Shown here in pieces: positions 34,001 through 47,233 of a DNA stretch of 47,233 bases (position 1 is the stretch's first letter; each line of letters begins with the position of its first letter). Origin of the DNA: Rudaea sp. (lineage in GTDB: Bacteria > Pseudomonadota > Gammaproteobacteria > Xanthomonadales > Rhodanobacteraceae); NCBI GenBank assembly GCA_025451955.1, contig JANWJJ010000032.1:1-47233 (forward strand), given 5' to 3'. The notes under the pieces are model-generated. The model had not been told where the DNA came from and did not search any database. It was given only the letters and a program-made list of their open reading frames with translations. A program made the translations under genes and the position numbers.

Positions 34001-35593
34001 TCAGCCCATGAAACCCAGATAATTGGCCGGGTTCGAGAAATTCGACAGATTCGGAAAGATCAAGCCGATGTCGCTCGCGCTCAATCCGAACCACTGCGCC
34101 AGGGTCGCCGCGTACTGATCCACCGACGTCGTCGGAATGATGCGGCCGATGCCGTCGCCGGAATCGTTGAGATTGGGCGACGCGTTGTAGACATTGGGTA
34201 GTTGGGTTGGATTGGTCAGGCTTGGCATAACAACGCCGTAATTCGTGTCTGCGGTGAAGCTGCAACCGTTGCCGTAGAACTTCTTGCCTTGCACTGCGCC
34301 GCCAACGACGAACTGGTGCGATCCCCAACCATGATCGGTACCGCCGTTGTTGCTGGTCATGGTGCGACCGAAATCCGAACAGGTGAACGCAGTCGCCTTG
34401 CTCGCCAGCCCCACGCTGTTCAAGGCGTTGTAGAAACCGGCCAGGGAACGCGAGAGCAGCGACAGGACGCCCGGATTGCCCGGCGCGCCGTGCGTGGCCA
34501 GCTCATCGCCGTGCGTGTCGTAGCCGCCGGTAGTGACGAAGAATATCTGCCGCGTGATACCGGTATTGCCCTGATTGGCGGCCCAGATCAATTGCGCGAC
34601 GGTTTGCAACTGGACATCGAGGTCGTAACCGGTCGACAAGGCGGCGGGAAACTGGTTGGCCGCGGTGAATGCCGGTGCGCCATTGATCGCCGTGTTGATG
34701 AGATTTGCCGTGGCGATCGAGTGATTCATGGTTCCGGCAAAGGTGCGTTCCAGCACGTTGGCCTGGGTTCCGGAGGACATGAGATTGCAGAACGCCTCGG
34801 CCGCGCCGGAATCATAGGCATTGGCCGCAGCAGCGCAAGTCAGCGGACCGCTGTTGCCTTGCAGAAGATTGATCGTCGACGCGCTATTGGCGTTCATGAT
34901 GTAGCCATTGACAACCTGCCCGCGCATGAAGGCATCCTGGCCGTTCAGCCCGGTGATCACCGGCGCATTGGAATTGTTCGCGCCCGCGACGAGGTCGGCA
35001 ATACGCCCGCCCCAGCCCGTCACTGGCTGGTTGGTCGGCGGTGAGGCTTGCCAATATGCTTCCTGGTCAGCGTGCGAATACAACTGCGGCGGTAACGCCG
35101 GATTGCCATTCTGGTATTCGGATTGTGTCACTGGCGCGACCAGCGTACCGACATTGGCGACGATTGCCGCGTTTCCGGCGTTGAACGTGGTCGTGAAATC
35201 CGCGCTGACGTTGGTCGTACCGGTAATCGGCTGCGGCGCCATCGCCGGGTTGAGCGCGTAAGTGTTGCCGTCGCCGGGACTGCCCGTGCCGCTGGCCGGT
35301 GCGTTGAGCACCGTGTTATTCATCTGGCTTTGCGTCAGCGCCAACGCGGGGCGTACGCCGTTGGTACCGTAAAAACTGTTGAACGCCGTCGTGTTGTACG
35401 GCACGACCGTATTGAAACTGTCGTTGCCACCGTAAAGGAAAACACAGATCAGTGCCTTGTAATCGGGAAAGCTGTAATTCGCACGCACGGCGGCCTGCAG
35501 CAATTGCAGGTTGCCCAGCGCGGAATACAGGCCTGCACCACCGAGTGCGGCGCAGATCGTGTCGTGGATGAACTTGCGGCGATCGGGACGCAT
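34001..35593 (-). CDS. DUF1501-domain exported protein
   Basis: This is a 530-aa protein beginning MRPDRRKFIHDTICAALGG, which looks like a twin-arginine signal (RRKFIHD). The DUF1501 body opens with ALICVFLYGGNDSFNTVVPY and includes FFVTTGGYDTHGDE and SDFGRTMTSNNGGTDHGWG, the sulfatase/phosphatase-like Asp/His pattern of the family. It is paired with DUF1800, starting 10 bp after it. The pair occurs in many bacteria and is presumed to act on an extracellular or envelope polymer, but the substrate is unknown. Confidence 0.92.
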   Translation of the reverse strand: MRPDRRKFIHDTICAALGGAGLYSALGNLQLLQAAVRANYSFPDYKALICVFLYGGNDSFNTVVPYNTTAFNSFYGTNGVRPALALTQSQMNNTVLNAPASGTGSPGDGNTYALNPAMAPQPITGTTNVSADFTTTFNAGNAAIVANVGTLVAPVTQSEYQNGNPALPPQLYSHADQEAYWQASPPTNQPVTGWGGRIADLVAGANNSNAPVITGLNGQDAFMRGQVVNGYIMNANSASTINLLQGNSGPLTCAAAANAYDSGAAEAFCNLMSSGTQANVLERTFAGTMNHSIATANLINTAINGAPAFTAANQFPAALSTGYDLDVQLQTVAQLIWAANQGNTGITRQIFFVTTGGYDTHGDELATHGAPGNPGVLSLLSRSLAGFYNALNSVGLASKATAFTCSDFGRTMTSNNGGTDHGWGSHQFVVGGAVQGKKFYGNGCSFTADTNYGVVMPSLTNPTQLPNVYNASPNLNDSGDGIGRIIPTTSVDQYAATLAQWFGLSASDIGLIFPNLSNFSNPANYLGFMG

Positions 35594-35603
35594 GAGCTTT
35601 CCC

Positions 35604-37688
35604 CTACTTCTGAATCTGATATTCGGGCGCGGACAAAATCAGGTATAGCGCGCGATAGATGCGCTGCAGACGCCAATCCTGGCTGCCGTTGGCCCAGCTT
35701 GAGTCGATGGTGTCGAGATAGGACTTCAACTGTGCGTACATGTACGGCGACATCTGACCCGACATGAAACGGGCGTTGTAGGCGGCGATCAGCCGGTCCG
35801 ACGGATCGGATAGTCCGCCCTTGCCGCTGCCGGCCAATGCCAGATCTTGCGCATGATTGATCTTGACGTCGCCGAACGGATCGAAACCCCGATCCGTTGG
35901 GATTTCATCGCAGGTGTCGGACGTGTCGAAGTTGTAGGCGTAACTCGCGTAAGTATTGTCGGAACTGGCGATGACGCTGTCGGTCTGGATCTGGAATTCC
36001 GGGCCGAGCAATCTGTCGGTCGTCATCTCACCCGGCGGCATGAAACTGGGCTTGAAGAAATTGAATACGGTCAGCGCATCCTGCGCGGCCTGTGTCACGC
36101 CGACGCTATACGTCGTTGTCTGCCCGGTCGACCACGCCGTGCTGTAGCCCGCATAGCGGTAGGGCTGGTTGGCATAGCTGGTCGGCGGCGAATAGTTGTT
36201 CGAACCTGGGGTACCGGCAGCGGCGATATTCGCACCGCAGGAATGCACGGCGTGCATCGCGCGCCAGAAGTGCGTCACCGTCAGCAGCGGCTCGCGCAGC
36301 TTTCCGAAGGTGCTCGAGTTCTGCCACTGACCGTAGCGCGCTTCTGGATCGAGCAGGATCGCCTGCACTACGGCTTGCAGTTGCGTAGCACTCGAACGAT
36401 TGGCGTTGAACACCGTGGCCACGCGCGCGACGTAGGCCGGGCTGGGATTGCTCGTCACCAGGCGCATGATCAACTGCTTGGCAATGAACGGCCCGACATT
36501 CGGATGGTTGTAGATGTTGTCCAGCGCGAACTTCAGATCGCTCGCCGCCGTGCCTCCCGGCCCGAGCAAACCACCGCTCGCCGCACTGGGGTAGCTCAAT
36601 AACTGCTTGTTCTGGATGTCGTCGGGCAGGTTCGTGCCGTTGTCGTGATAACTGGGCACCGTGCACGGCTGAGGTTGTCCGTTGCATTGAGCAATCATGA
36701 CCGCGTTGGTTTGATCGTACGCCACCATCGGCGTGAGGAAATTGACACCGTATGGCGGATTGCCGGTACCGCCCTGATCCGGCCCGCAACCCTGGAAATT
36801 GTCGTTGCCGTTCGCATCGCAATCCGACCAGTTCCAGCCGGTGAAGACATGGGCGAAATTCGTGATCGTGCTTTGCGTATAAGTCGGAATCGGATTGCCG
36901 CCGGACAGTTGCGGCGTGCCGTCGAGGTTCAGCATCACCAGACCGATGCTGAAAAGCTGGTTGATCTCGCGCGCGTAGTTTTCATCCGGATGGATATTCA
37001 TCGCGGAATTCACGCGCTGATTGCCCATCATGTTCAGATACACACCCATCGCCGGGCTGAGGGTGACATCGTCAAGCAGGGTGCGGTAGTTGCCGAACGC
37101 ATCCTTGACCAGCAGGTCGTACATCCACGCCATGCCCTGCGGATAGCCGCTGAGTGTCGCGTTCTGATCGGAGATGACGAGAATCTCGCTCAACGCAAAG
37201 GCCACGCGCTGGCGCAACTGATCGGTGTGGTTGTACGAGTTCTGCGTTGGATGCTGCGGATCCGGGCCGCCGAGCGCGCCGAGAAACCAGGCTTCCTGCC
37301 GGTTGTTCTGGCCAAGTTGTTCCTTGAGCACGTTCGCAACCCAATTCAGGTAAGCCGAATTGGTCTTGCCCGGCAGATCCGTCGTTTCGTAAGTCGGCGT
37401 TGCCGCGAACTGCTGATTGAGCCAAGCCTGATAGCCGAGCGTGCGCAGAGTGGAAATATCAGCATCAGTCGGCCCAAACGTGGTCTGCGCCAGAAACCGC
37501 GCGGCATCCGTGGCGCTGATATTCGCCGTGCCAACAGCGTTCAATCCATTGAAACCGTCGTGGAAGACCGGGTCGGGAAAGTGACTCAACGATTGCGCCG
37601 AGGCGCTCGCAGCGAACACGGCACCGGCAGACCACAGCACCGTCAACGACAACGATCGCCGCATCGACACACGCAAGAAATTTCGCAT
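35604..37688 (-). CDS. DUF1800-domain exported protein
   Basis: This is a 694-aa protein starting at ATG 37688 (MRNFLRVSMRRSLSLTVLW), preceded by GGTGGG; a longer frame runs to 37709. The signal peptide ends at about residue 31 (ASASA). DUF1800 motifs include ARFLAQTTFGPTDADI, RQEAWFLGA, MAWMYDLLVKDAFGNYR, ENYAREINQLFSIG and FIAKQLIMRLVTSNPS. The mature N-terminus contains DPVFHDGFNG, similar to the GFE-type tail of the CAP protein. It heads the two-gene DUF1800-DUF1501 operon. Confidence 0.92.
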   Translation of the reverse strand: MRNFLRVSMRRSLSLTVLWSAGAVFAASASAQSLSHFPDPVFHDGFNGLNAVGTANISATDAARFLAQTTFGPTDADISTLRTLGYQAWLNQQFAATPTYETTDLPGKTNSAYLNWVANVLKEQLGQNNRQEAWFLGALGGPDPQHPTQNSYNHTDQLRQRVAFALSEILVISDQNATLSGYPQGMAWMYDLLVKDAFGNYRTLLDDVTLSPAMGVYLNMMGNQRVNSAMNIHPDENYAREINQLFSIGLVMLNLDGTPQLSGGNPIPTYTQSTITNFAHVFTGWNWSDCDANGNDNFQGCGPDQGGTGNPPYGVNFLTPMVAYDQTNAVMIAQCNGQPQPCTVPSYHDNGTNLPDDIQNKQLLSYPSAASGGLLGPGGTAASDLKFALDNIYNHPNVGPFIAKQLIMRLVTSNPSPAYVARVATVFNANRSSATQLQAVVQAILLDPEARYGQWQNSSTFGKLREPLLTVTHFWRAMHAVHSCGANIAAAGTPGSNNYSPPTSYANQPYRYAGYSTAWSTGQTTTYSVGVTQAAQDALTVFNFFKPSFMPPGEMTTDRLLGPEFQIQTDSVIASSDNTYASYAYNFDTSDTCDEIPTDRGFDPFGDVKINHAQDLALAGSGKGGLSDPSDRLIAAYNARFMSGQMSPYMYAQLKSYLDTIDSSWANGSQDWRLQRIYRALYLILSAPEYQIQK

Positions 37689-37908
37689 GATCCCACCCCG
37701 CAGCAACAAAGGTCACGCTAACACGACGGGTTTAGGCGAATGATGACGGCGCGCACAATCGATCCGTGTCGGCAGTCGCAGTTGCGGATTATCGGCAATC
37801 CGTCACATTTCTCCGCACCGATCTCGTGGACACTGCGCCCGATGCAAATAGCGTCAGACCGGCCGGGGCCCGGTGACAAGCACGCATCCCATTTGCCTGG
37901 AGATCGAC

Positions 37909-38162: not shown

Positions 38163-40517
38163 TCAGCGGCGCGCAGCCGGCAGCAACTGCACCGTGTCGA
38201 TTGCCCACATCGGACTGCGCGATGGCCGGGTGAAGTAGAAACACAGATCGTGCCTGCCGTGTTGCGGCGGTAAGGTTGCCCGCAGCGGTGCCGTGGCGTT
38301 CGATTCGGCACTACCGGCCAACGCGGCCAACGGGATCGCTGCCAGTTTTTCTCCATTGCAGGTATCCAGGCGAACGTCGAGTTCGCCACCGGCAGTCGCC
38401 GGTTTGCGGATCACAACCTTGTCGGCATCGTGCCAGAGTTGAAAGTTGTAAGGCAGCCCGGCAGCAGAAACCGCGATCCCGCCGATATCGTCGAGCTCAG
38501 CCTGCGGGTAGATCCAGCAGGGATCAAAAATGTCGACGCGATAAACGCCGTCGCTCCCACCCGCGGACGGGCCGGGCAAGCGCAAGGGCAGGCCTTGTCC
38601 GGGTTTGCAGGCCTGCAGTTCGTCGCTGTTTTTGCGCAGCAACGAATCGTCGTCGATGAGCTGCGCGCGCGTTGCGGTTAGCGCGCGATCTCCGGCAAAC
38701 GTGCGCACGCGCAAGCGCGTCGGCAAGGTCAACCGCAACGGATTTCGATAAACCGGTGACTGCGGCGTCGGATCGCTGCCATCGAGGGTGTAGTGCAATT
38801 GACCGTAGTGTGCTTGATCGGACAACGTCACCTCGATGCGCCCGTCTTCGCGCGCAACCGCGACATCTGGCGCAAACGCGCTATCGGCAAAGTCGATGCC
38901 GAGCGCGCGGTAACGATCCAGCTGTGCCGGCAGGCGCGCGAGAAAGCCATGCCAATTGCGACTTTGTTGCGGCGACCACAGCACTTCGGCGAGCGCGGCC
39001 GCGCGTGGAAATGCGGCATGCTCGATGCGCTGCGGCGTGTCCATGTATTCCGTCCACAGGTTCGCCTGCGCGCCGAGAATATGCCGCGCTTGTGCCACAT
39101 CGAGCTCGCCCGGCACCGGCTCGTAGGCGTAGACATCACCCAGCGAAACCACGTCCGGCCGACCGGGCGGTTCGTCGTGCCGCGCGCTTTGCACATGATC
39201 GAAATACATCAGTGGCGACGGCGCCATGACCACATCGTGGCCCTGGTGTGCGGCCTCGATGCCGCCCTTGGTGCCCTGCCACGACATCACCGTCGCGCGC
39301 GGCGGCAGGCCACCTTGCAGGATTTCGTCCCAACCGATCAGGCGGCGCCCATGCGCATCCAGGAACTTCTCGATGCGCGCGACAAACCAGCTTTGCAGCG
39401 CGTCTTCATTCTTGATTCCCAATTCACGCATGCGTTGCTGCACGCGTGGCGACGCTTGCCATTGATCTTTTGCCGCCTCATCGCCACCGATGTGGATGTA
39501 CTGACCGGGAAACAGATCCATGACTTCGGTCAGCACGTTTTCCAGAAAGGTAAAAGTGGAATCGTCCACATTGTATAAATAGGTATGCACGCCCCAGTCG
39601 TGCGAAACCGGCGGACGTTTGCCGGTGACGCCGAATTGCGGATACGCCGCGATCGCCGCCTGCGCATGTCCGGGCATTTCGATTTCCGGCACGACCGTGA
39701 TGTAGCGCTGCGCGGCATAGCGCACGATGTCGCGAATCTGATCCTGCGTATAGAAACCGCCGTAACGCGGCGGCGTGCCGTGCACTGACGCGGGAATTCG
39801 CCAGGCGCCGATGTTCGTCAGTTCAGGATACTGCTTGATTTCTATCCGCCAACCCTGATCGTCGGTCAGATGCCAATGCAAGACATCGAGTTTGTGCAAC
39901 GCCATCGCATCGAGCAACTGCTTGATGAATTCCGGCGATTGAAAATGACGCGCGGAATCCAGCATCAATCCGCGCCAGGCGAAACGCGGATGATCTTCGA
40001 TATGCACGCAAGGCACGTCGAATGTGGTCTTGCGCGCCACGTCCCGGGTCAGCAATTGCCACAAGGTGATGCTGCCGTTGAACAGACCGTGCGGTGTGCG
40101 CGCAGCAAGCACGATCCGCCGCGATGAAACCGTCAATTCGTAACCTTCATCGCCAGTGTCGCCGCGAACCAGCAGGCGCGGATCGAGAGCGAAGACGATG
40201 CCGTCGGCGCCGTCGCCAGCGCCGAACGGATGCAGGTCCAGATGCAGGCCGCGCGTGCGCGCAAGCAGATCGGCAAAATAGCGCGCGACGCCAACGGCGG
40301 CGACGTTGCCCGATCGTACGTTCAATGCCGCACCCTGACGCAGGGTGAAATGACCCGGCGACGATTCGATGCTGGCAGGAAGCGGAATCAGCGATGCTGC
40401 GGAATGGGTGTGCTGCGGCGGCAGTGTTTGGCAGGCCGTCAACGCAAGCACGAGTGCCATCGTTGCCAGTCGCGCGGTGACGCCATGCCAATTGTATAAA
40501 AAGCCAGAAATGGACAT
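38163..40517 (-). CDS. GH20 beta-N-acetylhexosaminidase lipoprotein
   Basis: This is a 784-aa protein. The signal sequence ends in ALVLALTAC, with Cys29 as a lipobox cysteine, so it is probably anchored in the outer membrane or periplasm. The GH20b domain (to ~170) precedes the catalytic barrel with DVLHWHLTDDQGWRIEIKQY (211-230), PEIEMPGHAQA and the catalytic pair D346-E347 in HIGGDEAAKDQW. The C-terminal part has a chitobiase-like domain and extra beta modules. It removes terminal GlcNAc or GalNAc from oligosaccharides by substrate-assisted catalysis. It lies 105 bp downstream of the TonB-dependent receptor gene, past a terminator. The start codon is uncertain. Confidence 0.94.
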   Translation of the reverse strand: MSISGFLYNWHGVTARLATMALVLALTACQTLPPQHTHSAASLIPLPASIESSPGHFTLRQGAALNVRSGNVAAVGVARYFADLLARTRGLHLDLHPFGAGDGADGIVFALDPRLLVRGDTGDEGYELTVSSRRIVLAARTPHGLFNGSITLWQLLTRDVARKTTFDVPCVHIEDHPRFAWRGLMLDSARHFQSPEFIKQLLDAMALHKLDVLHWHLTDDQGWRIEIKQYPELTNIGAWRIPASVHGTPPRYGGFYTQDQIRDIVRYAAQRYITVVPEIEMPGHAQAAIAAYPQFGVTGKRPPVSHDWGVHTYLYNVDDSTFTFLENVLTEVMDLFPGQYIHIGGDEAAKDQWQASPRVQQRMRELGIKNEDALQSWFVARIEKFLDAHGRRLIGWDEILQGGLPPRATVMSWQGTKGGIEAAHQGHDVVMAPSPLMYFDHVQSARHDEPPGRPDVVSLGDVYAYEPVPGELDVAQARHILGAQANLWTEYMDTPQRIEHAAFPRAAALAEVLWSPQQSRNWHGFLARLPAQLDRYRALGIDFADSAFAPDVAVAREDGRIEVTLSDQAHYGQLHYTLDGSDPTPQSPVYRNPLRLTLPTRLRVRTFAGDRALTATRAQLIDDDSLLRKNSDELQACKPGQGLPLRLPGPSAGGSDGVYRVDIFDPCWIYPQAELDDIGGIAVSAAGLPYNFQLWHDADKVVIRKPATAGGELDVRLDTCNGEKLAAIPLAALAGSAESNATAPLRATLPPQHGRHDLCFYFTRPSRSPMWAIDTVQLLPAARR

Positions 40518-40622: not shown

Positions 40623-43421
40623 TCAGAACTTGAAGTGCAATGTTGCCATGTACTCGCGTCCTGATTTGTAGCGGGCGATCGGCTCGAACTTGCTGCCGAG
40701 GTAACCCAGATAGGTGGAATCGAGCAGATTCAGCGCATCGAAGCTCGCCGACAGATGATCGGTGAAACGCCAGGCAACATTGGCGTCGAGTTCCTTGTAA
40801 CCACCCACCGTTTCCGCCGGCGCGCCAGCCACGTAACCGCCCGCCAGATAACTGCTGCGATAACCGTACGAGATGCTGCTCGACCAGGCGCCCTTGTCGT
40901 AGTACGGCGTCAGGTTGTAGCTGTTCTTCGAGTTGTACGGCAACGCGCCGCCGCTCTTGGTAGTAGCGTCGGAATACGTGTAGTTGGCGCGGATGCCGAA
41001 ACCGGTGTCGCCGATCGGCTGCTGATAGTTGATCGTGAGACCTTTCGCCGTCGCCTTGCCGCCGTTTTCCGGACGCGTAATGCTGTAGTCGCAGAAGCCC
41101 TTGTTGTCGCAATTGCCGCCGGTCAAGCCCGCATACACCGTCGGATTGAGCACGATCAGCGAGTTGTACAAGCGTTCCGTACCCACGCCCTGGACGATGT
41201 AGTTGAGCACATCCTTGTAGAACACCGAACCGGCCAGCACCGATTCCGGCGCGAAGTACCATTCCAGCGACGCGTTGAAGTTGTTGGACTTGTACGGCGA
41301 TAGGTTGGGATTGCCGCCGCCGCCAGTCAGCACCGAATCGTTGGTGAAGACGTACGGTGTTTCCTGGTTGTACGGCGCCCAGGCGATGACCTGGGAAGCC
41401 GCGCCGCGCAAGACGACATCCGGAGCAAGGTTATAGGCGATGTTGAACGACGGCAGCACGTTGTTGTGCGAATTCGTATTCGTCCCATACACGCTCTGGG
41501 TGATATTGGTGTTATTGATGGTGTACGCCGATTCGTCGGTCGAGGTATGCACGAAACGCAGACCGAAGTTGCCACGCAGATCTTCGTTGCCGAAATTCAC
41601 CTGCGCGTACGCCGCATCGCTGTGCTGCGAGACTTCGAATTCGTTCTGGTACAGATACGGCAGATACAGGTATTTCTGATCGAACAGATTCGGACTGGCC
41701 AGCACCCAGTTGATGACGGTCTGTCCGTTCATTGGCTGCACATGGGCCGTCGCGCCCGGCCAGAAGCCCATACTCGACAAACCGGACAAGTCGGTCAGAC
41801 CGCCCGCACCAACATTGGCGAGACTGCCACCCTGCACGCCGCCGCTCCAGACGTCGTAGGCATTCTGGCTTTCGGTGTGCTTGGTGAAGCGCACGCCGAG
41901 CAGCAACTGGTTGAAGAATCCGCCGAGATCCTTGCTGAAATCGAACTGGGTGTAGTTGTCCTTGGCCGCATAGGGAATGTTGGCGTAATTGCCGTTGAAG
42001 TAATAACCCGACCAGTTCGCCGGATTCTGCGCGGCGGCGGGATTGTCGAAATTCATCCCGTGATTGATGTCCCAGGTATAACCGCCGAAATACACCGGCT
42101 CGATGAAGGCCTGGGTCAGATCATCGTGCGAGGTGCTCACGCCGGTCTGCGCGCTCAGCTTCCAGCCTTCGCCCTTGTACACGCCCTTCCAGTCGGCGCC
42201 CTTGGTCTTGATCAGCGCGGTGCGCGCGTTGTTGTCGAAGACCACCGCGCCAATACCTGGACAGCTGGGCGTAGTGGAGGGATCGCAATTATGCCCGCCA
42301 CTGATCACGCCACCGGGACCCGGAGTGAAGCTGGTGACGCCGGCCAAGGTGCCGGCAGTGCCACCGATCCAGTGCCAGAACGGATACATCGACTGGTTGT
42401 AGTTGTCGAGGTTGTCGCGCATGTAGAGCAGGCTGAGCGACGTCTCGAAATTGTCGGTCGGCTTCCACTGGATATTGCTCAATACGCTGTCGCGTTTTTC
42501 GGTCTGCTGGAAATTGGCGATATTGATTTCGTCCGGCACCTGATCGCTGGCTTTGAGCGCGCCAGACGCCACCTGCGCGGCGATCGTCGGATTGACCGCG
42601 GCGTAATCGGAAACCGGGTGATAACCGAAGATTTCCTCGCCCTGACGATCGGTGACCTGCTCGTAATGCTGCGCGGAGACATCGATGCCAAAGGTGTGAT
42701 CGTCGCTCTTCCAGCTATAGAAAACCGAGGCGTTGGGTTTGCCCTTGGACACCATGTTGTTGTAGTTGTAACCGACCGAACCACTGACGACGCCGCTGGG
42801 GACATCCAATGGCTGCACCGTGTGCATCAGGATCGTGCCGCCGAGGCTGCCTTCGGGCAGACGCGCTTCCGGCGTCTTGTAGATTTCCAGCGAGCCGAGC
42901 ACTTCCGGCGCCAGCAGGGAGAAATTGAAGCCGCGGTTCGGCGAATCGCCGTATTGCCAGATCGCCTGCGCCACCGGATGGCCGTCGAGGTAACTCAGGT
43001 TCAGGCTAGGATCGGTGCCGTCGATGCTTACGCGCTGGGTCGCGCCGAGCGCACGGTCGATGGTGACGCCGGGAATCTGCGCCAGTGCTTCGGCGACGTT
43101 GGTCGCCGGAAACTTGCCGATGTCCTCGGCCGTGATCGCATCGATGATGGCATCGGCATCGCGTTTTTTCTCCAGCGATTTCTTCAGGCTCTCGCGGATG
43201 CCGGTGACCACGATCTCGCTGAGTTGCTGGGTGTTGTCGGCCGTGCCAGCGCTCTGGCTCTGGCTATCGTTTTGCGCCAGTGCCAACTGCGTGGCCGGCA
43301 GTGACCCGGCATCGGATGGCTGAGACGCCGCCGGTGCCGCACTGTCCTGGGCATTTGCGGTGAATGCGACGCACAGGCAGGCAAGGATACTCGCGGTCAG
43401 GATTTTCTTGCGGTAGTTCAT
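40623..43421 (-). CDS. TonB-dependent receptor (carbohydrate type)
   Basis: This is a 932-aa protein with a signal peptide of ~24 residues (FTANAQ). The TonB box lies in LSEIVVTG at about 68-75, then the plug domain with IGKFPATNVAEALAQIPGVTIDR and the RVSIDGTDPS region. The rest is a 22-strand barrel ending YMATLHFKF, with a terminal Phe for BAM assembly. The plug resembles the carbohydrate-uptake TonB receptors of Xanthomonadales and Caulobacter (IDAITAEDIGKFP). A GGAGGGGAG ribosome site is present. It lies between glk and GH20. The substrate is likely an oligosaccharide taken across the outer membrane (inferred from the neighbours). Confidence 0.94.
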   Translation of the reverse strand: MNYRKKILTASILACLCVAFTANAQDSAAPAASQPSDAGSLPATQLALAQNDSQSQSAGTADNTQQLSEIVVTGIRESLKKSLEKKRDADAIIDAITAEDIGKFPATNVAEALAQIPGVTIDRALGATQRVSIDGTDPSLNLSYLDGHPVAQAIWQYGDSPNRGFNFSLLAPEVLGSLEIYKTPEARLPEGSLGGTILMHTVQPLDVPSGVVSGSVGYNYNNMVSKGKPNASVFYSWKSDDHTFGIDVSAQHYEQVTDRQGEEIFGYHPVSDYAAVNPTIAAQVASGALKASDQVPDEINIANFQQTEKRDSVLSNIQWKPTDNFETSLSLLYMRDNLDNYNQSMYPFWHWIGGTAGTLAGVTSFTPGPGGVISGGHNCDPSTTPSCPGIGAVVFDNNARTALIKTKGADWKGVYKGEGWKLSAQTGVSTSHDDLTQAFIEPVYFGGYTWDINHGMNFDNPAAAQNPANWSGYYFNGNYANIPYAAKDNYTQFDFSKDLGGFFNQLLLGVRFTKHTESQNAYDVWSGGVQGGSLANVGAGGLTDLSGLSSMGFWPGATAHVQPMNGQTVINWVLASPNLFDQKYLYLPYLYQNEFEVSQHSDAAYAQVNFGNEDLRGNFGLRFVHTSTDESAYTINNTNITQSVYGTNTNSHNNVLPSFNIAYNLAPDVVLRGAASQVIAWAPYNQETPYVFTNDSVLTGGGGNPNLSPYKSNNFNASLEWYFAPESVLAGSVFYKDVLNYIVQGVGTERLYNSLIVLNPTVYAGLTGGNCDNKGFCDYSITRPENGGKATAKGLTINYQQPIGDTGFGIRANYTYSDATTKSGGALPYNSKNSYNLTPYYDKGAWSSSISYGYRSSYLAGGYVAGAPAETVGGYKELDANVAWRFTDHLSASFDALNLLDSTYLGYLGSKFEPIARYKSGREYMATLHFKF

Positions 43422-43583: not shown

Positions 43584-44600
43584 TCACGGCGTTCGCCGCC
43601 GATGCAGATAACATCCCGCCGCACCGAGCACGCCGAGCTGGCCATGCTCGATCAGATTTACCGGCACACGTTCCAGCAATGCACGCATCGGGCCCTTGTC
43701 GCGGAAGCGCTCGACAAAATCGCTGCGCAACAGGAAATCCGAGATCTGCGGGAGTATCCCGCCGGCGAGATAAACGCCGCCCTGGGCGCCGTAAAGCAAA
43801 ACCAGATTGCCGACCACGCTGCCGAGCCAGCCACAGAACACCTGCAACGCTTCCAGCGCTACCGCGTCCTTGGCTATCAGCGCAGCGTCGGTAACTTCGT
43901 GGGGCGTCAAGCGTTTCGATGCGACGCCACGCATTTCGCCGATCACGGCATAAAGGTTGGCGAGTCCGGGACCCGACAGCACCTGCTCGACCGGCACATG
44001 TGTCGAATCGCGCAACAGCAGCCGCAGAATTTCCATCTCGATTGCAGTCGAAGGCGTCAACGCCGACTGGCCGGCCTCGGTCGAGAGAATCATCGGCGAT
44101 ACCGCGCCGGGAATCCGCACCGCGGCGCCAAGCCCGGTGCCGGGCCCGACCACCAGTACCGGCCCCTGCATCGGCTCCGCTGCGGCGGCGATCTGCACAA
44201 CGTCGCGTTGCGCCACATACTCGGTCGCGTAGGCGATCGCGGCGAAGTCGTTGACCAGAAGCAGATCATCCAGGCCGAGCGTGCGGCGGATTTCGGCCAG
44301 CGATACTTGCCACGGCAGGTTGGCGTTGATGACGAGGTCGTCGAGCGCATAACCGGCACAGGCGATCGCGGCGCGGTCGACCCGGGCCGGCGCACCGGTT
44401 CCGAGAAAATCCGCAAGTATCGTGGTCAGGCTCGGGTAATCGGCACAGGCATATTTTCTATAGCCCGACACCGACGGCGCTTTGCCGCCGATTTCCACCA
44501 GCCCGACCCGCGCGTAGGTACCGCCCACGTCGGCGGCGAGCAGCAGGCCGCTCGCAGTACGTGGTGCTTCGGCGATTTGTCGGCTGGCCACCGGTGTCAC
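43584..44600 (-). CDS. glk: Glucokinase (Glk family)
   Basis: This is a 338-aa protein from GTG 44600, chosen because AAGGA lies six bases upstream and the predicted promoter places transcription start near 44650. ATGs at 44618 and 44636 are also possible. The ATP motif is LLLAADVGGTYARVGLVE, then LLLVNDFAAIAYA, VLVVGPGTGLGAAV and VYLAGGILPQI, the Glk (PF02685) pattern rather than ROK. It phosphorylates glucose, or possibly an amino-sugar, after MFS uptake. The operator site overlaps its -35 box. Glk-type kinases that act on N-acetylglucosamine occur in some Xanthomonadales loci (family knowledge). Confidence 0.9.
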   Translation of the reverse strand: MTPVASRQIAEAPRTASGLLLAADVGGTYARVGLVEIGGKAPSVSGYRKYACADYPSLTTILADFLGTGAPARVDRAAIACAGYALDDLVINANLPWQVSLAEIRRTLGLDDLLLVNDFAAIAYATEYVAQRDVVQIAAAAEPMQGPVLVVGPGTGLGAAVRIPGAVSPMILSTEAGQSALTPSTAIEMEILRLLLRDSTHVPVEQVLSGPGLANLYAVIGEMRGVASKRLTPHEVTDAALIAKDAVALEALQVFCGWLGSVVGNLVLLYGAQGGVYLAGGILPQISDFLLRSDFVERFRDKGPMRALLERVPVNLIEHGQLGVLGAAGCYLHRRRTP

Positions 44601-44656
44601 GCTTTGTCCTTTTTCCATCGCAGCGAAAACGCCCATCCGCTCGGTTTGGCGGCGCG

Positions 44657-44685
44657 AATATGAAATCAAATGACAACGTTGTCAA
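44657..44685 (-). promoter_or_regulatory. Predicted sigma70 promoter of glk
   Basis: On the - strand, a consensus -35 TTGACA (44685-44680), a 17-bp spacer and -10 CATATT (44662-44657) are present. The start of transcription would be near 44650. The -35 box lies inside the palindrome TGACAACGTTGTCA plus one base, so a bound repressor would block polymerase directly. Confidence 0.7.
44671..44684. promoter_or_regulatory. Predicted LacI-family operator (perfect 14-bp palindrome)
   Basis: TGACAACGTTGTCA is a perfect even-length palindrome with a central CG, the pattern bound by LacI-family dimers. It overlaps the -35 of glk. The LacI-type gene two genes away is the natural candidate regulator. 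Confidence 0.75.
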
Positions 44686-44886
44686 GCATGGATCCAGAAA
44701 CATTTCCCATTGCCGCAGTGCCGCACGAACAGAAAATTCCACGCGCGCCATCCCGCAGGCAATTCCCAATTATTGCTTGCTATTTCTGCATCGAAATTGT
44801 TGCGAAGCAACATCGAATGACAGCACGGATCACCATCACAGCGGCTAAAAACGCGCGTGCATCATCGGCAAATTGTGGGCACACTA

Positions 44887-44900
44887 TGACAACGTTGATA
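44887..44900. promoter_or_regulatory. Second, degenerate operator copy
   Basis: TGACAACGTTGATA repeats the left arm and core of the first site, with two mismatches at the right end. It lies 118 bp before the transporter ATG and could allow looping or separate control of the divergent gene. Confidence 0.6.
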
Positions 44901-44970
44901 GTTATTTGACTCATCGGTCATGCAGCGACCGGAACAGCAGCGCACAGCATCAATATGCAAACGTATACCT

Positions 44971-44984
44971 GTGGATTAATCCAC
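44971..44984. promoter_or_regulatory. Perfect palindrome GTGGATTAATCCAC upstream of the MFS gene
   Basis: It is a 14-bp perfect inverted repeat with an AT-rich centre, 34 bp before the start codon. It does not match the CG-centred LacI pattern. It may be an operator for another regulator or a short hairpin in the leader. Confidence 0.5.
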
Positions 44985-45018
44985 GTGACGATCCGTTTCC
45001 GCCAGCAGGATTCAGCAC

Positions 45019-46320
45019 ATGAGCAATGCACACGCCACGACAGCCCCGGCGACAGGCAACCTCGCTTCCATCGTCACGGTCGGAATAATGTTTTTTGTAT
45101 TCGGGTTCTTTACCTGGATCAACGGTTCGCTGATCACCTTCGTCAAACTTGCGTTCGATCTCAACGATGTGGATGCGTTTCTGGTGCCGATGGCGTTTTA
45201 TCTTTCGTATTTCTTCCTCGCGCTGCCCTCATCATGGATTCTGCGCACGACCGGCATGAAGCAGGGCATGGTGCTCGGGTTGCTGGTCATGGCGCTCGGT
45301 GCCTTCGTGTTCGGCGAATTCACGACCCTGCGCATCTACGCCGGTGCGTTGACCGGCTTGTTCGTGATCGGCGCGGGACTGGCGTTGTTGCAGACCGCGG
45401 TCAATCCCTACATCAGCATTCTTGGTCCGATCGAAAGCGCCGCACAGCGCATCGCGCTCATGGGTATCTGCAACAAGACCGCCGGCATCCTGGCGCCGCT
45501 GCTGCTCGGTAGTCTGGTGCTGCGCGGCCTGGACGACCTCGCCGGAAAAGTTGCCGGTGCGGACGCCGCCGCCAAACAGACCTTGCTCAATGACTTCGCG
45601 GCGCAAATCCATTTGCCTTACATGATCATGGCAGGCTTGCTCGTCGTGCTCGCGGTCTGGGTGTGGCGCTCAACCTTGCCCGAGATCAAGGCGGCCGAAG
45701 CGAATGCGGCGGCTGGCACAAGTGGAGAAAGCAGTATTTTCCACTTTCCCCACTTGTGGCTGGGCGTACTTTGCCTGTTCTTGTATGTCGGCGCCGAAGT
45801 CATGGCGGGCGACGCCATTGGCACTTACGGCCAGGGTTTCCACTTGCCATTGGACGAAACCAAATTCTTCACCGCGTTCACCCTGGCGGCAATGCTGCTG
45901 GGCTATGTCGTCGGCTTGATCGCGATTCCGCGGTTCATTTCGCAGGAAGGTTATCTGGGCGTTTCGGCCGTGCTCGGCGTTGTTTTCAGTCTGGCCGCCT
46001 TCGTTTCCCACGGCTATGTCTCAGTCGGCTTCGTCGCCGCCCTGGGCTTCGCCAACGCGATGATGTGGCCGGCAATCTTCCCGCTGGCGATCCGCGGTCT
46101 CGGCCGCTATACCGAACTCGGCTCGGCGCTGCTGATCATGGGCATCGCCGGCGGTGCGATCATTCCACAGATTTTCGCGCACCTGAAAAACCCCGGCAAT
46201 TTCCAGCTCGTGTTCTGCACGATCATGCTGCCCTGCTACCTGTATATCTTCTACTACGGTCTGCATGGCCATCGCGTCGGCGTGGAGCAGCGGCGCGGTG
46301 CGATCGCCGCCGCTACGTAA
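45019..46320 (+). CDS. Sugar MFS transporter (FucP / glucose-galactose / NagP type)
   Basis: This is a 433-aa protein with 12 predicted membrane helices. Family features include FFVFGFFTWINGSLITFVK near residue 25, AFYLSYFFLALPSSW, QTAVNPYISILGP, IALMGICNKTAGILAPLLLG and, in the second half, FANAMMWPAIFPLAIRGLGRYTELGSAL (only parts are diagnostic). These match the glucose/galactose and fucose permease group, proton-sugar symporters; NagP of Shewanella and Xanthomonas belongs to it. It imports a monosaccharide released in the periplasm, probably glucose or N-acetylglucosamine. It is divergent from glk and followed 83 bp later by the LacI-family gene. Confidence 0.92.
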   Translation: MSNAHATTAPATGNLASIVTVGIMFFVFGFFTWINGSLITFVKLAFDLNDVDAFLVPMAFYLSYFFLALPSSWILRTTGMKQGMVLGLLVMALGAFVFGEFTTLRIYAGALTGLFVIGAGLALLQTAVNPYISILGPIESAAQRIALMGICNKTAGILAPLLLGSLVLRGLDDLAGKVAGADAAAKQTLLNDFAAQIHLPYMIMAGLLVVLAVWVWRSTLPEIKAAEANAAAGTSGESSIFHFPHLWLGVLCLFLYVGAEVMAGDAIGTYGQGFHLPLDETKFFTAFTLAAMLLGYVVGLIAIPRFISQEGYLGVSAVLGVVFSLAAFVSHGYVSVGFVAALGFANAMMWPAIFPLAIRGLGRYTELGSALLIMGIAGGAIIPQIFAHLKNPGNFQLVFCTIMLPCYLYIFYYGLHGHRVGVEQRRGAIAAAT

Positions 46321-46403: not shown

Positions 46404-47233
46404 ATGCGCAAACCCACGATCAAAGACGTCGCCAGGCGATCCAAGGTATCGCTGAAGACAGTGTCGCGCGTGATCAACAACGAAGCGTCCGTACTCGAAC
46501 GCACGCGCAACAAGGTGCTGCGCGCCGTGGCGGAATTGAATTATCAGCCCGATGTCTCCGCACGCAGTCTGCGCAGTGCGAAGTCGTATGCGCTGGGTCT
46601 GGTTTACGACAATCCGAACCCGTATTACGTCATCAGCCTGCAAAACGGCGTGCTTTCCGTTTGCCGCGAAACCGGTTTCGGCTTGCAGATTCACCCATGC
46701 AATTCCTCGTCACCGCGCCTGGCCGACGAACTCTGCGCACTGGTGCGGCATGCACGTCTGGCCGGATTGGTGCTGGCTCCGCCGATGTCCGAACGCCGCG
46801 AGCTGATCGAACATCTTGCCGCCAACAATGTCCACTTTGTGCGCATCATCTCGGCTGCGGCCGATCCGCAGGACGGCTACGCTTGCGTCTTCGTCGATGA
46901 CCGCGACGCCGCCTACGACATCACCGAGCATCTGATCCAGCTCGGGCACAATCGCATCGGCTTTCTGTGGGGCGGCGAATTGCACCGTTCCAGTCCCGAG
47001 CGTTTCAAGGGTTACGAGAGTGCACTCAAGGATTACGGCATCGCGCTGGACAAGAAACTGATTGTTCCCGGCGATTATTCCTTCGACGACGGTTTTCGTG
47101 GCGCACGCAAATTATTTGCACTCAAGGATCGCCCCACCGCCATCTTCGGATCCAACGACGAGATCGCCGCTGGCGTGCTCGCGGCCGCGAAAGCGAGTGG
47201 CATGGACATACCCTACGACCTGTCGATCGCCGG
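46404..47233 (+). CDS. LacI-family transcriptional regulator, 3' end outside the window
   Basis: About 276 residues are present, starting at ATG 46404 (MRKPTIKDVARRSKVSLKTV); the stop lies beyond the window. The helix-turn-helix TIKDVARRSKVSLKTVSRVI and hinge PDVSARSLRSAKS are canonical. The sugar-binding core begins YALGLVYDNPNPYYVISLQNG, then LQIHPCNSSSP and FIGSNDEIA-type loop (here IFGSNDEIAAG). It is expected to bind the TGACAACGTTGTCA sites and be released by the transported sugar or its phosphate. The effector is unknown. It follows the MFS gene on the same strand. Confidence 0.93.
   Translation, partial: MRKPTIKDVARRSKVSLKTVSRVINNEASVLERTRNKVLRAVAELNYQPDVSARSLRSAKSYALGLVYDNPNPYYVISLQNGVLSVCRETGFGLQIHPCNSSSPRLADELCALVRHARLAGLVLAPPMSERRELIEHLAANNVHFVRIISAAADPQDGYACVFVDDRDAAYDITEHLIQLGHNRIGFLWGGELHRSSPERFKGYESALKDYGIALDKKLIVPGDYSFDDGFRGARKLFALKDRPTAIFGSNDEIAAGVLAAAKASGMDIPYDLSIA

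Follow-up and report, generated by a model that had tools for sequence, protein, structure and literature searches.

The intergenic region between a gene labelled as a glucokinase (glk) and a divergently transcribed sugar transporter gene in Rudaea sp., a member of the Lysobacterales (Xanthomonadales), carries two copies of a LacI-type palindrome, raising the question of which repressor acts there, which sugar it senses and why the two copies differ. The window analysed is the whole stretch of 47,233 bp in which these genes lie. It very probably contains, judging from comparative sequence evidence, the control region of an uptake locus for N-acetylglucosamine (GlcNAc) and chitin oligomers under asymmetric two-operator control by a NagR/NagI-type LacI-family repressor. 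The observations behind this reading are the sites, their positions and orientation, their conservation, their co-occurrence with the repressor and the gene neighbourhood.

Organisation of the locus

The genes and control elements of the region are as follows.

38163-40517, minus strand: GH20 beta-hexosaminidase, third gene of the putative kinase operon
40623-43421, minus strand: TonB-dependent receptor (TIGR01782), second gene of the putative kinase operon
43584-44636, minus strand: glucokinase-family kinase (PF02685, 'glk'), by profile match, with a predicted start
44657-44662, minus strand: -10 box CATATT of the kinase operon, 17-bp spacer from TTGACA, from the promoter scan
44671-44684: operator 1 (strong), perfect 14-bp palindrome TGACAACGTTGTCA, read from sequence and conservation
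44680-44685, minus strand: kinase-operon -35 box TTGACA, covered by operator 1, from the promoter scan
44887-44900, plus strand: operator 2 (half-degenerate), TGACAACGTTGATA, which is TGACAACGTT followed by GATA, from sequence and conservation
45019-46320, plus strand: MFS sugar transporter, above the gluP TIGR01272 cut-off
46404-47233, plus strand: NagR/NagI-type LacI-family repressor, gene truncated at the window end

A preliminary description of this DNA had placed a palindrome over the kinase -35 box, a second and degenerate copy 216 bp away on the transporter side, and a LacI-family gene two genes from the kinase. All of these are present as described: the TTGACA-17-CATATT promoter lies on the minus strand, the operators are 216 bp apart from start to start, and the LacI-family gene follows the transporter gene. 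The kinase promoter is the one sigma-70-like match found in 44500-45100, where 50 shuffles gave a mean of 0.4. The kinase probably starts at ATG 44636 or 44618; a TTG at 44669 is upstream of the expected start point of the promoter. Operator 2 has its complete half on the side of the kinase gene, where it covers what is probably the -35 region of the transporter promoter; the scan of 44500-45100 found no good -10 box for this promoter. A terminator-like hairpin lies between the operators at 44755-44780, a count at shuffle level (1 found, mean 0.6).

The repressor gene continues on contig C115, whose end (L197) overlaps the window end (47107-47233) by exactly 127 bases, and once read on it encodes 347 aa. 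This protein has the one LacI-type HTH found in its own genome, an assembly that is 81% complete. Its SLKTVSR segment and Leu56, which are presumably the recognition helix and the hinge, are invariant in 12 aligned repressors from plus-strand loci, out of 31 available. The repressor gene is linked to a nagP-type transporter gene, although the transporter scores below the NCBIfam NagP cut-off (NF046060, 350 bits against 625). Beyond the repressor, C115 carries edd, pgl and zwf (all over their NCBIfam cut-offs), a GntR/UTRA regulator gene in the place of nagQ, nagB-II and nagA. The nagB-II product has SIS domains and NagB-II NF046059 as its best family, at 336 bits against a cut-off of 430, and the nagA product is over the TIGR00221 cut-off. 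Elsewhere in the window (34001-37709), DUF1501 and DUF1800 genes are adjacent; the two often occur as a pair, with no known function.

The palindrome at up to three mismatches has five matches in the window against 1.62 expected, a number reached by 1 of 100 shuffles. The perfect 14-mer is unique in the 2.55 Mb assembly of the genome. At up to two mismatches, the genome holds seven places for the operator and seven for the reversed control pattern, so that operator 2 stands out from chance only through conservation and not by its letters alone. As the total equals the control count, the five other places are not claimed as operators; those on C16, C39, C85 and C141 are inside mechanical ORFs, and no ORF ends are listed within 1.5 kb of the one on C46. 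A place with three mismatches on C115 is inside an ORF away from nagQ-nagB-nagA and was likewise not counted. A genome-wide search for the motif, which had been suggested as a check, thus bore out the perfect site at this locus, while no convincing operator was found at any other gene in the 81%-complete assembly, nagQ-nagB-nagA included.

Conservation of the two operators

Sixty genomes were searched for the repressor, and 31, the Rudaea genome included, have an ortholog at 69% identity or more. The operator within one mismatch occurs in 31/31 genomes with the LacI ortholog vs. 11/29 others (Fisher p ~4e-8, relatedness ignored). Site counts follow the same division: the 31 ortholog genomes hold 85 sites where the reversed control has 6, and the others hold 28 where it has 15. 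Five of the 11 site-bearing genomes lacking the ortholog have a LacI relative of ~40% identity. In another family of the order, TGACAGCGTTGTCA is found at G049:C1 367956-367969, 83 bp upstream of a LacI-relative match of 41% identity; its presence near a distant relative suggests that the motif is older.

Orthologous regions were aligned by gene order, giving 29 (28 relatives plus the window) out of 30 relative loci. L078, with no kinase gene in the stretch covered, and L093, whose kinase gene is not divergent from the adjoining transporter gene, were left out. Site 1 is perfect in 25 of these regions and has one mismatch in four; at site 2, TGACAACGTT is exact in 27 and has one mismatch in two. 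With one mismatch allowed, both operators are present in 29/29. Exact TGACAACGTT lies to the right of site 1 in 27/29 regions vs. 0/29 in each of 500 single-base shuffles, the rows being related, and in the opposite orientation it occurs in 0/29.

A second scan covered named genomes, namely the best 80 of 578 confirmed relatives, several of them shared with the 29-region set. These include Rhodanobacter, Luteibacter, Lysobacter, Luteimonas, Pseudoxanthomonas, Stenotrophomonas, Tahibacter and Oleiagrimonas. Seventy-four named Lysobacterales loci have a kinase gene in the stretch covered, five of which (L117, L138, L147, L148, L150) were scored over hand-set ranges; L152, L159, L161, L163, L180 and L189 have no kinase gene in that stretch and are outside this number. 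Within these best 80 of 578, site 1 is present at up to one mismatch in 74/74 loci, and the site 2 10-mer is exact in 62 and has one mismatch in 11, L184 being the only case where site 2 is absent. In the Lysobacter-type loci L152, L161, L163 and L180 the repressor occurs with no kinase, transporter or site at up to two mismatches nearby. Relatives of nagA, nagB-II or nagQ are found nearby in 70 of 110 loci across both sets, which include the best 80 of 578. On conservation, both sites are identified as operators.

Operator spacing and looping

The divergent region holds two conserved sites at a distance of 216 bp, which invites the interpretation, made in the preliminary description, that the repressor bridges both operators in a DNA loop and shuts both promoters together. 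There is precedent in E. coli NagC at nagE-nagB, which requires two sites and looping according to the available part of that work (PMC5401889). However, the spacing varies between 96 and 321 bp and shows no helical phase. It is 213-248 bp in 24 transporter-type regions, 96-108 bp in five regions where the repressor gene itself is divergent, and 108 to 321 bp in 68 named loci among the best 80 of 578. No helical phase was detected in the 24 regions (Rayleigh p at least 0.28, periods 10.0-11.0 bp) or on the distinct spacings of the 68 named loci from the best 80 of 578 (p 0.08-0.50, periods 10.0-11.3 bp). LacI tetramerises through its extreme C-terminus, and the window's repressor has no such tail: it ends eight residues past the conserved RDST, and its local match to E. 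coli LacI chains stops at residue 299 of 360. The 12 aligned repressors also end shortly past the last conserved core segment. The variable, unphased spacing and the missing tetramer tail leave looping unsupported, and a joint shut-down by a loop is unlikely. GalR loops as dimers, and a GalR-like loop by dimers with helper proteins is possible.

A perfect and a half-degenerate operator

The difference between the two sites was measured under a single scoring rule in 68 named loci, all among the best 80 of 578. Site 2 there differs from the palindrome by two mismatches in 25 loci, three in 26, four in 14 and five in 3, and never by fewer than two. The final T, C and A of the palindrome are matched at site 2 in 19, 4 and 6 of the 68. 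Position 14 is C in 56/68 of these loci from the best 80 of 578, indicating that the last quarter of site 2 is not simply free. In five of eight Luteimonas loci (L145, L165, L181, L186, L191), the degenerate half reads AGTC(A/G), a form close to an odd-length 15-bp palindrome, TGACAACGTTAGTCA.

At site 1, all 91 distinct contexts contain TTGACA, and in 49/91 it has a 17- or 18-bp spacing to CAGAC(T). An alternative is that site 2 is not an operator and solely a -35 element conserved in the transporter promoter. In its favour, site 2 overlies TTGACA in 43/88 distinct contexts, and AATAAA or GATAAA follows 18 bp further downstream in 26/88. However, the first T varies (ATGACA in 29 and GTGACA in 13, together 42/88), so the 10-mer is not explained by a -35 box alone. 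The ACGTT that follows TGACA is kept in 28 or 29 of the 29 regions and in 63 to 68 of the 68 named loci (among the best 80 of 578), for which a -35 box is insufficient. In S. maltophilia the nagP promoter is derepressed in a nagI mutant, as given in the available text of PMC13055268. A purely promoter-based role of site 2 is quite improbable.

As an operator, site 2 appears to be the weaker of the two and to be held weak. Its predicted consequence is leaky expression of the transporter and repressor against tightly shut expression of the kinase and receptor.

Putative targets of the operator in relatives

Ten extra perfect or near-perfect operator places were fetched from relatives. They lie upstream of GH20 genes (two), a GH18 chitinase gene (one), the gene for a CBM5/12 protein (one, a pair), TonB receptor genes (three) and kinase paralogs (two); beside the last place, in L104, no known family was found. 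One-mismatch sites also occur as pairs 190-302 bp apart at L103 6038-6326 (G017:C4), G025:C2, G026:C1 and G035:C1. The mismatch in these pairs is the outermost base, and the G017 pair is beside a CBM5/12 protein.

Four same-genus relatives carry a one-mismatch site in the nagQ-nagB-II gap (L074 1645, L075 18926, L076 3707, L079 1300), and none of these loci has nagP beside the repressor. The gap site suggests a possible takeover of nagB by the LacI repressor in these genomes. Taken over the window and its relatives, the predicted targets (kinase, TonB receptor, hexosaminidase, chitinase and nagB genes) all belong to GlcNAc or chitin use, with this locus the sole contribution of the Rudaea genome itself. 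By its predicted targets, the operator set is a chitin/GlcNAc regulon, and the gene layout, the nag neighbours and the chitin-type targets in relatives identify it with the known GlcNAc regulon NagR/NagI.

Identity of the kinase

A tree of 31 kinase rows was built from the window kinase and 30 of 34 PF02685 matches from 14 chosen genomes (of 60). It carries a long-branch warning, its deep forks among nag-type copies are tentative, and X. campestris NagK-IIA/IIB are outside it. Ten presumed housekeeping glucokinases split from the other 21 rows at 100/100 support. They are 31-37% identical to the window kinase and all read EGGH at the sugar-binding motif. At two of their loci, L204 and L205, a one-mismatch site occurs at a distance of more than 1.4 kb from the gene; the other eight loci have none. 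A nearby site at up to one mismatch accompanies 14 of the remaining 20 copies from relatives, while two of these copies have a two-mismatch site and four have none. Twelve of the 14 site-linked copies read EAGQ, as does the window kinase, and two EGGH. Across 108 kinase hits from overlapping sets, the position is Gln in 78, His in 20, Glu in 3 and Leu in 2, with five pattern misses; Gln is thus common in these kinases and not universal. In E. coli glucokinase this His contacts glucose. The Gln at this position in the window kinase hints at GlcNAc use, although it is suggestive only.

Tree and neighbourhood together separate the window kinase from the housekeeping glucokinase clade and link it to the nag locus. 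The glk label of the preliminary description therefore changes: the kinase falls outside that presumed clade and, within the glucokinase family, is probably a GlcNAc kinase of NagK-II type. The likely signal is in turn GlcNAc or GlcNAc-6-phosphate rather than glucose. A glucose/beta-glucoside system, in which the regulator senses glucose, glk is a true glucokinase and the transporter is GluP, would agree with the NCBIfam names (glucokinase; glucose/galactose transporter) and with the kinase being the one PF02685 protein found in the 81%-complete assembly, but is very improbable given the neighbouring GH20 hexosaminidase, the nag genes on the overlapping contig C115, the chitin-type targets in relatives and the relatives' separate glucokinase clade with no adjacent site.

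The available part of a study of S. maltophilia reports that a strain without NagK retains about half of its kinase activity, from which another kinase was inferred (PMC13055268). The divergent strong-site kinase would be a natural candidate for this second GlcNAc kinase.

Comparison with known systems

In S. maltophilia, NagI is a LacI-family repressor of nagP that is itself encoded in the nagPIBAF operon and responds to GlcNAc-6-phosphate, as described in the accessible portion of PMC13055268. There, as in the window, the repressor gene comes after that of the transporter. The likeness rests on DNA of the related S. geniculata (L192), where the repressor shares 72% identity with the 276 aa encoded in the window, the kinase gene is divergent, nagB-II and nagA lie behind the repressor and both sites are present, the first with one mismatch. 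Unlike in nagPIBAF, nagB-II and nagA in the window's genome are beyond edd, pgl and zwf, beside the GntR-type gene and outside the transporter operon.

For two Xanthomonas species, the available text of PMC5343134 predicts NagR control of a GlcNAc kinase and TonB receptors and NagQ control of nagAB and nagP, whereas the window's transporter has a LacI-type site. Binding by Shewanella oneidensis NagR was demonstrated by gel shift, and its binding at nagK was relieved by GlcNAc, per the accessible part of PMC3223726. Both regulons involve a LacI-family GlcNAc repressor as here, a likeness drawn from the published descriptions. By analogy with NagI and Shewanella NagR, repression at the window locus is likely relieved by GlcNAc or GlcNAc-6-phosphate.

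E. coli NagC at nagE-nagB also acts on divergent GlcNAc genes through two repressor sites (PMC5401889, available part). NagC, however, is a ROK family protein that acts by looping, whereas the window has a LacI-family repressor and its operators are variably spaced; furthermore, one site is degenerate in the 68 named loci (among the best 80 of 578), unlike at nagE-nagB as described in that part. A central CG is a feature of LacI-family operators according to the text available of PMC4052901, and the window operator is an even palindrome with a central CG, placed in regulated promoters in the sequence and across the 29 regions. Strong support for the earlier proposal of one LacI-family repressor acting at two sites in a divergent promoter region comes from the footprinting and from these orthologous or analogous systems, as far as their published descriptions were available.

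Proposed mechanism and significance

Binding, effector, dimer state, operon extent and the difference in affinity are all predicted in the following model. Without inducer, one repressor dimer would occupy the perfect operator, covering the -35 box of the operon for kinase, TonB receptor and hexosaminidase, and a second dimer would occupy the half-degenerate operator at the -35 region of the operon for transporter and repressor. The repressor would be released by GlcNAc-6-phosphate (or GlcNAc). Most probably, the constant difference between the two sites keeps the kinase side under tight control and leaves the transporter/repressor side leaky and autoregulated.

The regulon is of a known type; what appears new is the conserved strong/half asymmetry and the relabelling of the kinase. 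No report of the strong-site/half-site pair was found in the searched literature, and none of the kinase relabelling, although work on X. campestris NagR/NagQ may contain either. The exact operator string was not found in print, a search by which a logo or a differently broken string would be missed.

A broader reading is a Lysobacterales GlcNAc switch with a fixed asymmetric pair, in which site 2 has been selected to be weak and the strong-site kinase is the second GlcNAc kinase. This is put forward tentatively, as plausible and somewhat short of probable. It would place a perfect operator on the kinase/receptor operon and a consistently oriented 10-bp half-plus operator on the transporter-repressor promoter, where the weak site 2 would keep the transporter and repressor leaky and autoregulated.

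For this locus, a guessed operator becomes a well-conserved one with a likely repressor, sugar and set of targets, and a glucokinase label is corrected to a probable GlcNAc kinase. A candidate is also offered for the second GlcNAc kinase left open in S. maltophilia in the available part of PMC13055268. The asymmetric pair itself would be a simple and testable design, providing enough transporter to sense the sugar while the costly uptake machinery stays off.
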